Source: Actinomycetota bacterium (GTDB taxonomy: Bacteria; Actinomycetota; Actinomycetes; S36-B12; GCA-2699445). Taken from it: a stretch of DNA of 57,806 nt. The DNA lies in contig JAPOIY010000016.1 of assembly GCA_029978705.1 (NCBI GenBank), positions 1 through 57,806 of the forward strand, in the 5' to 3' direction. Positions within the stretch are counted from its first letter, which is position 1, and each line of letters begins with the position of its first letter. The translations under genes were made by a program, and so were the position numbers. This document shows positions 22,740-55,136 of the stretch, piece after piece. Under the pieces are notes generated by a model. It was not told where the DNA came from. It saw nothing but the letters and a program-made list of their open reading frames with translations, and did no database searches.

Positions 22740-22767
22740 CCGCAAGAGTCGCATGCGACCGTTTCGG
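22740..22767. repeat. solitary copy of the 28-bp palindromic repeat
   Basis: The 12-bp core GTCGCATGCGAC at 22748-22759 is flanked by the arms CCGCAAGA and CGTTTCGG. The same element occurs several times at 53099-53331. Here it covers the place where the -35 box of the hydroxyacid oxidase gene would be: the -10-like TACCGT is at 22770-22775 and the ATG at 22783. Confidence 0.8.
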
Positions 22768-50282: not shown

Positions 50283-52994
50283 CTACCCCCGACCGGGCCT
50301 CTGCGGGGTACCGGACAAGGACCGGTGCACGCTGACCACCTGCTGGAAGGTCGGCCGGTTCTGGAAGGGGAACGACGACGGGGTACCGATCGCGGACGTG
50401 ATGCGCATGCGGTCGCGGTCGTAGCAGGATGCCTGCGGGTCCGTGGCACAGGCACCGAGGCCGTACAACTCCGTCGGCGTGACCGCTGTCGCGGCCAGCA
50501 ACGTCGCCTGCAGGACCTCCCGGCACGCCGTGGGGTCACCGTCGCCGCAGAATTCGCGGCCCAGGGGCTGGGACTGCTTGCCGTCGAACACCGCCCGCAG
50601 GTCCCGGTCCACGTAGCCCCACCAGCCGTCGGCGAATCCGCCCGCATGGGGCTTCTCCCCCTCGGTCACGGCGCCGCTGGGGATGATCGCCTGGATGGCG
50701 TCGTAGGAGGTGCTGCCCAGACCCGGCTCGAACTCCGCTGCGACCAGGCGCGGCCACCACGCGTCCATGATCTCGATGGCGCGGTTGTGTTCGTAGACAC
50801 CGTCGCCGTTGAGGTCGCGGCGGTAAGAGCCGGCCTCCATCCAGGCGCGCAGTTGGGCGACGGCGTCGGCGATCGCAGGATCGGTCGGGTCGCCCAGGAC
50901 TCGCAGGAGCAGCGGCAGCAGTTTCACCCCGCGCACGTCCTGCGTGGCCGGCAACTCCATGGCCTGCACCAACTGCGCCCGCGTCATGTCGCCCCGACGC
51001 AGGTACCGCCGGATGCGCTGCTCGATCATCTGCGAGCGGTAGATGGGGCCGTACCCCCACTGGTCGTCGGCGGCCGCCCAGTCCCGCGCGGGCTTGTTGT
51101 TCCACGACACCAGAACGTCGGGGTCGACGACCCGGGGATGCGCGGAGAAGGGGATGGTGCGCGACGTCCAGGTCCGCGGGTTCCAGCCGCGCCAGTCGTA
51201 CTGCCCGGTGCCCAGGACCGGGAAGTCGGGAGTGGTGGCAGCGGCGCGCTGGGGATAGGCCCCGGACAGGAAGTAGGCGATGTGGCGGTGGTCGGTGTAC
51301 GCCCAGTTGAACGTGAACGAGATCTCCGACGCGGCCCGCTGGAAGGACTTCGGGCCGGTGACCTGCCGTGGGTCGTTGAGGGCGGCGAAGCCGACGGCCG
51401 ACTCGGCCTCGTGCATATAGGTACTGCGGGCCAGCGCGAACGCGACCCGCTTGCCGCCCACCGTGCCGTAGGACTGCACCAGGCCGTGGACGGTGCGGTA
51501 GGTGGTCAGCGTCGCCGAGCCAGCCGGTGAGGGGTCGATGGCGTTGGGGGTCCAGGAGTTCTCGCGGACCAGTTTCTCCATGGGCCGGCACGTGCCCCGG
51601 TAGCGGTACTTGTGGTCGCTGCCGCCGCACAGCACCTCAGCGAAGACGTCGGTGTTGTCGGAGCCCGCTGACGTGGCGCTCCAGGCGTAGTCGCGGCCGT
51701 GGCCCATCTGGATGAAGAGGTTGACGCCGGCGAACGCGACACCGCGGGCCTCGATGCCGGGTCCGTGGAGTTCCTGCTCGACCAGGATCTGCGGCAGCCA
51801 GTAGCCGACCTGCGGGCCCATGACGGCGATCGGCCGCCCGTTGGCGGAGTGGCGGCGGGACACCAACTCCCAGTTCGACGCGTGACCCTCCGCGCGCTGC
51901 GTCACCAGCGCGGCGGCGACGTCCCCCGGCTCGGCGGCCGCGGCTGAAGCGGACGAGGTGATGGGCGCGGGGGTCACGGAGCCGTTGTCGGGGATCGCGA
52001 GCCCGCGTGGGGAGAAGGAGTCCCCGGCCTCGTACGGGAAGGACCGTTTCGTCGTCACGGGGGCGGCGGCGTAGTTGCGGGTGCGGAACCCTTGCCAGAT
52101 GCGGCGGGCCCGATCGGCGCCGAACCGTTGCCGCAGGGCCGTGTAGACCTGCCCGGACTGGACCTCCGCTCCCCCACCGCGCCCGAAGATGCCGCCGACG
52201 AGGGAGGCGGTGGCGATGACGTCGGTGGCCCGCCAGTCGCGCACCTCCTTGTCGAGCAGGCTGTACTCGGAGGGCATCAGGGAAGGATCCCGGCGCGCGT
52301 CGGCGATGTAGGCGTTGACGCCGGCGGTGTAGGAGCGCAGTTCCCCGACGAGGGGGCGGCCGTGGGGTACCTGCTTCATGAGGCGGATCTGGCGGCGCAG
52401 GTCGGCGTCGGTGTAGGCGGCGAAGCGCCACTGGTCCTCGTCCGAGGTGAGACTCTTGGCGCCCAACAGGGAGGACAGGGTGGCGCGCCCGGTGTTGCGC
52501 AGGACGTCCATCAGGAAGAGGCGGTCGGCGGCGCCCGCGTAGCCGGCGCCGAAGGTGGTGTCGCGGCGAGTGGTGCCGTAGACCCGCGGTACCCCCCAGG
52601 TCTTGTCGCGCACGATGGTGACCCCGGGGCGCGGGCGCACGATCGCGGTGCGGTCAGCGGCGCGGACGCCGAAGGGCGCGTCCTTGTAGAAGTGGGAGAT
52701 GTCGGCGTTGGTCAGGTCCGGGGCAGCTGTCAGCAGGCCTTCGTAGAGGGGTTGCTGGTTGTCCCACCAGCGGGGTACGGCGCCGGTGGAGAGGTAGTTC
52801 TGGAAGTCGGTGAGGGAGTCGGTGCCGTTGGACCCGGGGGGCAGGATGTTGCGGAACCCGCCGGCATCGTTGTGGCCGTAGGGCTGGGGGTCGGCTGCCT
52901 GGGCGGGCACCGCCGCCAGCAGGAGGGCCGATGTCGTAGCGCCGACCACCAGGGCCAGCCTCCGGCTCCGCGTAACCGCAGGTCTGTGGATCAT
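50283..52994 (-). CDS. secreted penicillin-acylase-family amidohydrolase
   Basis: An Ntn-hydrolase precursor of 903 residues. The signal peptide ends near AQA. The alpha-chain region is followed by the self-cleavage site: the nucleophile Ser373 in EGHASNWELVSRRH (the family motif is G/A-S-N-W). The beta chain carries GPQVGYWLPQILVEQELHGPG and later ITFTFNWAY-like and WNNKPARDW segments. The family includes penicillin, cephalosporin and acyl-homoserine-lactone acylases; the substrate is not predictable. ATG 52994 has TAGGGT 7 nt upstream (leaderless type). An open frame continues upstream through the palindrome array but shows only repeat translation, so I do not extend it. Confidence 0.88.
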   Translation of the reverse strand: MIHRPAVTRSRRLALVVGATTSALLLAAVPAQAADPQPYGHNDAGGFRNILPPGSNGTDSLTDFQNYLSTGAVPRWWDNQQPLYEGLLTAAPDLTNADISHFYKDAPFGVRAADRTAIVRPRPGVTIVRDKTWGVPRVYGTTRRDTTFGAGYAGAADRLFLMDVLRNTGRATLSSLLGAKSLTSDEDQWRFAAYTDADLRRQIRLMKQVPHGRPLVGELRSYTAGVNAYIADARRDPSLMPSEYSLLDKEVRDWRATDVIATASLVGGIFGRGGGAEVQSGQVYTALRQRFGADRARRIWQGFRTRNYAAAPVTTKRSFPYEAGDSFSPRGLAIPDNGSVTPAPITSSASAAAAEPGDVAAALVTQRAEGHASNWELVSRRHSANGRPIAVMGPQVGYWLPQILVEQELHGPGIEARGVAFAGVNLFIQMGHGRDYAWSATSAGSDNTDVFAEVLCGGSDHKYRYRGTCRPMEKLVRENSWTPNAIDPSPAGSATLTTYRTVHGLVQSYGTVGGKRVAFALARSTYMHEAESAVGFAALNDPRQVTGPKSFQRAASEISFTFNWAYTDHRHIAYFLSGAYPQRAAATTPDFPVLGTGQYDWRGWNPRTWTSRTIPFSAHPRVVDPDVLVSWNNKPARDWAAADDQWGYGPIYRSQMIEQRIRRYLRRGDMTRAQLVQAMELPATQDVRGVKLLPLLLRVLGDPTDPAIADAVAQLRAWMEAGSYRRDLNGDGVYEHNRAIEIMDAWWPRLVAAEFEPGLGSTSYDAIQAIIPSGAVTEGEKPHAGGFADGWWGYVDRDLRAVFDGKQSQPLGREFCGDGDPTACREVLQATLLAATAVTPTELYGLGACATDPQASCYDRDRMRITSAIGTPSSFPFQNRPTFQQVVSVHRSLSGTPQRPGRG

Positions 52995-53098: not shown

Positions 53099-53331
53099 CC
53101 GAAACGGTCGCATGCGACTGTCTCGGAGGCGGGGTCGGGTCGCTGGGGAAGCCGAAACAGTCGCATGCGACCGAATAGGGCCCGATTCGCGAGCCGAACG
53201 TGCCGAAAGAGTCGCATGCGACCGTTTTGGGCGGGTGTCTCGCCCGTGGGAGCCAGAAGCGACCGTTTCGTACAAGTGCGACCGTTCCTGCAGTCGCCCC
53301 TGACGCCAACAGTCGCATGCGACTGTTTCGG
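53099..53331. repeat. array of 28-bp palindromic repeats at about 50-bp spacing
   Basis: Four copies share the exact 12-bp core GTCGCATGCGAC at 53107-53118, 53160-53171, 53211-53222 and 53312-53323. Each has 8-nt arms close to CCGAAACA (left) and TGTTTCGG (right), so the consensus is a perfect 28-bp palindrome. A degenerate copy without the core (CCAGAAGCGACCGTTTCG) is at 53253-53270 and a half copy near 53275. Successive starts are 53, 51, 50 and about 51 bp apart. The spacers are unrelated. This fills most of the 387-bp space 52995-53381, where I see no gene. A fifth full copy is at 22740. Confidence 0.85.
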
Positions 53332-53381: not shown

Positions 53382-55136
53382 TCAGGCGCTGTCCGGGTCG
53401 CCGAGGTCGGCGGCCTCGGTCACGTCGGCACGCGTGTCCTCGGCCGGCTGTGTCCGCTGCGCCGGGGGGGTCAGACTGTCGGCCGCCTCGGGGAACCGCT
53501 TCAGATACTCGGCCACGGCCGTCGGCAGCGTCGGGTACATGTCGTCCTCCCCGATCAACTCGGACACCCCGTGGTCGCGCATCGGGTTCAACACGTCGTT
53601 CTTCACCCGCGCCAGCCACAACTCGGTGCCCTGCTTCTCGAGGGCGCCGTGCAGTTCCATGAGCATCTCCAGCGCCGTCGAGTCCAGTTCGACGTTCGCC
53701 TCCATGTTGAGGATGACCACCTTGGTCCCCTGCGGACAGGCCTCCATGACCTTGTTGTAGAAGTCGAAGGCGTTCATGAAGAACAGGGGCGCGTCGTAGC
53801 GGAAGACCACGAGACCCGGGATGGTGATGGCCTCCTCGAAGTCGTCGATGTCGTGCATGCCCGCCCGGTCGGGCACGTAGCCGAGGACCCCGTCGTGCGG
53901 GCGCGCCAGCCGGGCCATGAACTCCGCGATCGACAGCGCGATCGCGATGATCACGCCGGGGAGGATGCCGAAGACGATCACTGAGATCGTGCAGACGGCG
54001 GCGATGGTGGTCTCGCGCTTGCGGAACTTCAGCAGCGACGCCCACTCGGCGGGCTCGATCAGGCTGATGGCCGCGAAGATGATCACCCCGGCCAGCCCGG
54101 CGATCGGCACCGCCGCGATCACTCCGGGGAACAGCAACGGACCCGCCAGCAGGATCACGAGCACGAAGATGGAGTAGAACCGGGTCGTGGCCCCACCCGC
54201 GACCGCGAGTGCGGTTCGCGAGGACGACGCGGACATCGGGTAGCCGCCCGCGATGCCGGTGGCGGCCTGGACCCCCGCGAGGGCCCGCATCTCCGAGCTC
54301 GGGTCGGGGGGCACCCCCTGGGCGAAGGCTCGCGACGTGACCATGACATCGGTGTACGACACCACCGCGATCGACAGCGCCGGCACCAGGAGGGCCTCGA
54401 TCACGTCGAGACTCACGATCCCGAACTGCGGCACCGGCACGGCCAGGTGCACCGGGCCGACGGTCGGGACCTCCCACACCATCCCGAGCAGAATGGCCAC
54501 GATCAAGGCGATGAGCGGTCCGGGAATCTTGGGGTTGACGAACTTCAGGATCAGGGCGATGCCGGCGACGATCACGGCGATGGCGACGGTGTGCCAGTCC
54601 GGCATCTGCCAGTCGGTGTTCCACAGCCCGAGCAGGGAGGACGTGTCGACGTCGTACCCGAGGACCTTCGGCAGCTGGGAGATCAGCATCAGGATGGCGA
54701 CGCCGGTGAGGTACCCGACCAGGATGGGCTTGGAGAGCAGGTCGGCCAGGAAGGACGCCTTCAACAGCCAGGCGATGAACAGGATGATGCCGACCATGAG
54801 ACTCGTGAGGCCCAACGCCGTCAGGACGGGCACCCCCATCTCCGCGGCCACGGGTCCGACGGCCGCCGCCGCCATCAGGGCAACCGTGGACTCCGGCCCC
54901 AGCGACATGTACTTGCTGCGGCCCAGGATCATGTAGACGACCAAGGGGATCACCGCGACCCCGAGGCCGGTCGCCGCGTCGATCCCCGCCAACTGTGCGT
55001 AGGCCATCGCCTGCGGGATCAGGTAGGCGCCCACGGAGACCCCCGCAAGGATGTTCCCAGGGGTCAGGACGGCGGAGCGCAGTTTGCCGCCGAAGCCCTT
55101 CCCGGACTCGGTGGTCGCGGCGGTGTCGGTGCCCAT
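53382..55136 (-). CDS. SulP-family anion transporter with STAS domain
   Basis: A 584-residue SLC26/SulP transporter. The membrane domain (about 25-420) starts with GNILAGVSVGAYLIPQAMAYAQLAG, the family signature, and has GPESTVALMAAAAVGPVAAE and SRAFAQGVPPDPSSEMRALAG. The cytosolic STAS domain is at about 455-560 (PGLVVFRYDAPLFFMNAFDF, VVILNMEANVELDSTALEML). The C-terminal tail is acidic. The family carries sulfate, bicarbonate or other anions; the substrate is not assignable. TAGTCT lies 6 nt before the ATG, so it is probably leaderless. Confidence 0.93.
   Translation of the reverse strand: MGTDTAATTESGKGFGGKLRSAVLTPGNILAGVSVGAYLIPQAMAYAQLAGIDAATGLGVAVIPLVVYMILGRSKYMSLGPESTVALMAAAAVGPVAAEMGVPVLTALGLTSLMVGIILFIAWLLKASFLADLLSKPILVGYLTGVAILMLISQLPKVLGYDVDTSSLLGLWNTDWQMPDWHTVAIAVIVAGIALILKFVNPKIPGPLIALIVAILLGMVWEVPTVGPVHLAVPVPQFGIVSLDVIEALLVPALSIAVVSYTDVMVTSRAFAQGVPPDPSSEMRALAGVQAATGIAGGYPMSASSSRTALAVAGGATTRFYSIFVLVILLAGPLLFPGVIAAVPIAGLAGVIIFAAISLIEPAEWASLLKFRKRETTIAAVCTISVIVFGILPGVIIAIALSIAEFMARLARPHDGVLGYVPDRAGMHDIDDFEEAITIPGLVVFRYDAPLFFMNAFDFYNKVMEACPQGTKVVILNMEANVELDSTALEMLMELHGALEKQGTELWLARVKNDVLNPMRDHGVSELIGEDDMYPTLPTAVAEYLKRFPEAADSLTPPAQRTQPAEDTRADVTEAADLGDPDSA

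Follow-up and report, generated by a model that had tools for sequence, protein, structure and literature searches.

The Array and Its Neighbors

The gap between two genes at positions 53099–53331 is occupied by a row of similar palindromes, which raises the question of what kind of element they represent and how they came to lie there. The window (the whole stretch of 57,806 nucleotides analyzed here) contains the exact 12-bp core GTCGCATGCGAC in this region at 53107, 53160, 53211, and 53312, giving core-to-core steps of 53, 51, and 101 bp. One degenerate copy lies within the last step, 41 bp past the third core and 60 bp ahead of the fourth. An earlier note on this DNA had reported four identical cores plus a degenerate copy, which was confirmed, and starts 50–53 bp apart throughout, which was not; the actual steps are 53, 51, 41, and 60 bp, and equal spacing is therefore approximate. 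The repeat is palindromic as described there, though the 28-bp palindrome (full consensus CCGAAACAGTCGCATGCGACTGTTTCGG) is imperfect in all four copies rather than perfect, and the variable 8-bp arms of the exact copies, which had been called matching, agree only in part.

The first outer palindrome is a single one (53099–53126, core 53107–53118) and is followed by a second with a decayed right arm (53152–53179, core 53160–53171) and a third (53203–53230, core 53211–53222). The remainder, 53244–53331, forms one composite, which consists of a degenerate outer site retaining only the right half-site GCGACCGTTTCG (53244–53271), an inner palindrome with the half-sites GCGACCGTT and GCAGTCGC (53272–53303), and the fourth outer palindrome as its right end (53304–53331, core 53312–53323), with the same 60-bp spacing as elsewhere in the genome. 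The inner palindrome had been overlooked previously. A fifth exact core was located at 22748, in a lone outer palindrome belonging to this family (22740–22767) between two plus-strand genes.

Both neighbors of the array are encoded on the minus strand, a penicillin amidase family gene (50283–52994) and a SulP sulfate permease gene with a STAS domain (53382–55136), and the array fills the gap between them, 50 bp from the stop codon of the latter. The open frame of the amidase gene continues through the array to 53339, and this extension is a spurious N terminus; the recurring SHATV- and TVACD-type peptides pointed out earlier are real and are added to that frame by the array. A known RNA family was rejected, as Rfam matches were sub-threshold only.

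Distribution of the Palindromes in the Genome and Relatives

The core was found in 26 exact copies at 16 places of the 2.9-Mb genome, while the reversed control pattern gave 0. This genome-wide search, which the earlier note had proposed, shows that the core is not confined to the array. The sole congener compared (G001) contains 14 copies. Among 99 relatives, more than two copies were detected in this congener only; 12 other genomes hold one or two each, which is about the number expected by chance for a 12-mer according to our own estimate. A longer pattern searched within the family agreed with the result for the core. Matches of a 19-mer pattern to Methylocystis and Flavobacteriales were likewise close to our estimate of chance for that contig collection. 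The palindrome pattern was not found in viral contigs, and a phage origin was rejected; one weak phage homolog was seen.

When the places were aligned, they sorted into three forms. These are lone 28-bp outer palindromes, asymmetric units of ~80 bp, and 88-bp composites, in which the centers of two outer palindromes lie 60 bp apart with an inner palindrome midway. All three are composed of one half-site, GCGACYGTT, in alternating orientation. The composite with fixed 60-bp core spacing and inner palindrome occupies 13 places of the genome. The ~50-bp regularity, from which a regularly spaced operator array had been proposed, is local to the window site, and elsewhere cores stand alone or in pairs 60 bp apart. 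Folding of the repeats into hairpins gave z values of −6 to −10, and the forms of this genome had z ~ −9 as single strands. The former suggestion of a hairpin-forming or protein-binding element of the BIME/REP type is supported.

The elements are intergenic, mostly within ~130 bp of a stop codon, and lie between tandem or convergent genes. The enrichment between genes that had been predicted was thus observed at every place except one on contig C148 of this genome (G000), which resisted judgement. There, a composite (L066:1997–2076, G000:C148:4700) is located within the open frame L066:363–3179, whose glycosyltransferase matches are near the C terminus only; this frame either passes through the element or comprises two genes. 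At another place (L064:22–1437, G000:C115), the ATG of a FAD-oxidase gene is supplied by the element (ATGAAACGGTCGCATGCGACC), creating the spurious N terminus MKRSHATVS. The palindromes are best explained as a REP/TIR-like dispersed family specific to this genus.

Presence and Absence between the Two Species

Both the genome under study and that of the congener are multi-contig draft assemblies, and most of their comparable orthologous element sites differ. The window array is missing at the orthologous place in the congener, where the intergenic gap is ~55 bp compared with ~390 bp, and no core was detected there when up to 2 mismatches were allowed; the flanking proteins are 48–83% identical to their counterparts. 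The congener likewise lacks both elements of locus L062 and the single element of L060 at the corresponding positions, around which the gene content differs as well. These differences support mobility of the elements, against which one element (C115/C443), behind a nitrilase gene, occupies the same place in both species.

A Complete Unit Encoding a Putative Endonuclease

Each species possesses a unit of ~1.2 kb in which a single gene is bracketed by a pair of these elements. It lies outside the window and was invisible from the window alone. The two units (G000:C104 and G001:C530) are located in non-orthologous places with unrelated surroundings and are homologous inside, as BLAST of the two loci gave a segment of ~850 bp with 67% DNA identity. 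They neighbor housekeeping genes, rpsL/ADH and rdgB/MFS. A clean empty site exists for the unit of the congener, since ~15 bp separate rdgB from the MFS gene in G000:C83, versus 1.5 kb in G001. Beside this unit, behind the end of rdgB, the congener also has a tandem array of a ~20-bp repeat (CTCACCTGACGTCTTGGCCC-like; L122:3135–3300, G001:C530) that is absent in G000.

The unit protein is 325–340 residues long in the congener; the intact 325-residue form is encoded at L018:3481–4455. In G000, the only copy of the gene (G000:C104:21284–22069, L063) is interrupted by one frameshift shortly ahead of the catalytic strand, at residue ~262, which may reflect decay or an assembly error. PADLOC labels the N-terminal part as AbiEi, and Pfam detects DUF559, MTES_1575, or AbiEi_4 in many homologs, with weak matches in the unit protein. 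A profile of 35 homologs matched the endonuclease-like structure 3hrl (E 8.6e-9) and the EDxHD mobile-intron endonuclease 3r3p (E 1.4e-4) in the PDB. E206, D238, E249, D251, and G252 are invariant in the 35 sequences, as would be expected of an active Vsr/DUF559-type nuclease, so that a catalytic role is predicted from sequence for these residues. A single-sequence structure model was discarded (pLDDT 37). The protein is best explained as a fusion, in which an N-terminal region resembling AbiEi, and probably binding DNA through a winged helix, precedes a predicted C-terminal PD-(D/E)XK endonuclease of the Vsr/DUF559 type.

Repeats Flanking the Homologous Genes

Homologs were found in 47 of the 99 relatives, often several in one genome. 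To each locus we assigned a score, the best ungapped repeat common to the left and right flanks, and the controls were genes of comparable length taken from these same genomes. A score of at least 17 was obtained for 28 of 39 homolog loci and for 0 of 149 ordinary genes (Fisher p ~9e-25). When boundaries were set at the gene ends, a score of at least 14 was reached by 40 of 47 loci, a set that contains the two seed units, compared with 2 of 149 controls; the remaining 7 loci had no flank repeat. In 26 of the 40, both flank repeats are inverted repeats scoring at least 10, for which the random background has a median of 8 and a 90th percentile of 11. Repeats common to both sides were also observed for two Tsukamurella plasmid copies, one Collinsella, and one Arthrobacter. 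The homologous genes lie in convergent gaps more often than expected (20 of 40 versus 118 of 637 gene pairs, p ~1.5e-5). Three of four pairs of homolog loci compared between G024 and G036 are orthologous.

One relative (G090) has three homologs with three different palindrome families, each of which is dispersed, at about 13, 1 extra, and 3 places in a 400-kb stretch. The 13 copies of the first family have nearly exact ends and internal mismatches that are mostly identical. They lie at G090:C3:1183297–1394030 (L242–L252), around their nuclease gene at 1.3576 Mb, none being present in 1.00–1.18 Mb, and most have C-rich/G-rich flanks. In G000, a second homolog, L187 (G000:C148:16925–17782), has another palindrome (GACCGCAAACCTGCCCCGTGCGGGGC) on its two sides.

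Comparison with Known Systems and Proposed Mechanism

We consider it likely, with a probability of roughly two in three, that the array in the window consists of clustered, non-autonomous members of a dispersed family of palindromic mobile elements, whose complete form is the ~1.2-kb unit with palindromes at both ends and an AbiEi-DUF559 endonuclease gene. Points that weigh against this are the lack of a visible target-site duplication, the frameshift in the G000 gene, the 7 homolog loci with no flank repeat, the element shared behind the nitrilase gene, and the draft state of both assemblies. The closest parallel is the REPtron or TIRtron, where REPs or inverted repeats border a RAYT gene and are found dispersed as well (PMC3733652). 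Like REPs and REPINs paired with a RAYT (TnpA-REP), the present repeats are short, imperfect, intergenic palindromes that are dispersed and often located behind stop codons (PMC3733652, PMC8266576); like REPtrons and TIRtrons, they enclose a single gene between the same repeats, fall into several families within a genome, each family having a gene of its own, and have more non-autonomous copies than genes (PMC3733652, PMC8266576). The repeat consensus, unlike that of REPs, has no GTAG or CGTC tag, and the gene encodes an AbiEi-DUF559 PD-(D/E)XK endonuclease instead of the HUH tyrosine transposase of REPtrons. The HUH Y1 transposase (Y1_Tnp, PF01797) is absent from the genome, in a search whose positive controls worked, and a classical RAYT/REP system was rejected accordingly. 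The system thus resembles a REPtron in its working and is not one, because its enzyme has no relation to RAYT and Y1 transposases are missing from the genome. We conclude that the array elements are REPtron-like and paired with an AbiEi-DUF559 endonuclease in place of a RAYT transposase.

EDxHD-type domains are known to cut DNA (PMC3943268). The EDxHD or Vsr-like homing endonucleases such as I-Bth0305I share with our protein the C-terminal domain that matches 3r3p and 3hrl, and they too form a small, selfish-looking nuclease unit (PMC3943268). The present unit differs from the I-Bth0305I type in that it is not intronic, is bounded by palindromes, has short non-autonomous copies, and is intergenic rather than inserted in a conserved target gene.

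In the mechanism we propose, the N-terminal part would recognize its own palindrome, in duplex or extruded-hairpin form, and the nuclease would nick or cut there. Repair or strand transfer could then copy the palindromes or the whole unit to new sites, and short copies like those of the window array may be acted on in trans. With 26 sites in the genome, cutting of the duplex would hardly be survivable for the host, which makes an extruded or single-stranded hairpin the likelier substrate, in parallel with RAYT (PMC8266576).

Alternative Explanations

The same units could be read as ordinary MITEs, whose ends are moved by an unrelated transposase and whose endonuclease gene is a passive cargo. 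Features shared with MITEs are palindromic termini in inverted orientation, short copies that have lost internal sequence and carry the ends of the gene-bearing unit, and orthologous sites that are occupied in one species and empty in the other. The ends are composite palindromes here, however, and the palindrome family changes among homologs while the gene inside remains one protein family. No target-site duplication was visible by eye, either at the 13 element boundaries inspected in G000 or at the 13 inspected in G090, and neither a Y1 nor a classical transposase was seen. We regard this explanation as unlikely.

Alternatively, the palindromes could be operators through which an AbiEi-like protein regulates its own gene, with the dispersed copies being regulatory targets or decoys, and the gene itself a toxin–antitoxin or defence component. 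The DNA targets of AbiEi proteins are paired 23-bp inverted repeats, which for AbiEi and Rv2827c lie in their own promoter (PMC7319586). The AbiEi-like N-terminal part assigned by PADLOC and Pfam and the alternating half-sites are compatible with this, as in the AbiE type IV toxin–antitoxin systems (e.g., Rv2827c), whose AbiEi binds inverted repeats (PMC7319586). The repeats nevertheless flank the gene on either side rather than upstream alone, and they occur genome-wide, where the dispersed copies are downstream of genes and not at divergent promoters. An AbiEii nucleotidyltransferase partner was found neither adjoining the two units nor among the 25 commonest families of 84 neighbor proteins, and the conserved nuclease motif at the C terminus is a further departure from AbiE. 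Housekeeping neighbors and the varying presence and absence between the two species also speak against a regulatory function, which appears improbable to us.

We find it very doubtful that the elements are non-mobile, REP-like sequences selected for a benefit to the host, as bidirectional terminators or protectors of mRNA 3′ ends. Their position close behind stop codons and their strong hairpins would suit such a role, but no intrinsic terminator, promoter, or T-run terminator signature was detected in the array, orthologous places differ, and the association with an endonuclease would be unexplained. A CRISPR array, to which only the repeat–spacer appearance of the window site points, is rejected on geometry and dispersion, because the arms vary, the spacings are 53/51/41/60, most genome copies are single or paired, and the immediate neighbors, penicillin amidase and SulP, include no cas gene, in agreement with the earlier note.

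Implications for the Protein Family

The occurrence of palindrome-bracketed genes for a predicted endonuclease across actinobacteria points to a type of mobile element not described so far; no prior description of DUF559 or AbiEi together with palindromes was found among the open-licence PMC papers searched. We also lean, with less confidence, towards a new class of mobile element that is widespread in Actinomycetota, in which an AbiEi-DUF559 PD-(D/E)XK endonuclease mobilizes the palindromes bracketing it and, in trans, the short intergenic repeats, so that the REP–RAYT arrangement would have been invented independently with other chemistry. Movement would then be based on a restriction-type nuclease rather than an HUH transposase, and cognate pairs of nuclease and palindrome are predicted, each of which is individually testable. 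Scattered palindromes in genomes that lack RAYT genes would thereby have a source, and a large, functionally unassigned protein family, usually labeled as AbiEi antitoxin or DUF559, would have a role. If it is true, many orphan "AbiEi antitoxin" annotations in Actinomycetota would denote mobility enzymes and not antitoxins.
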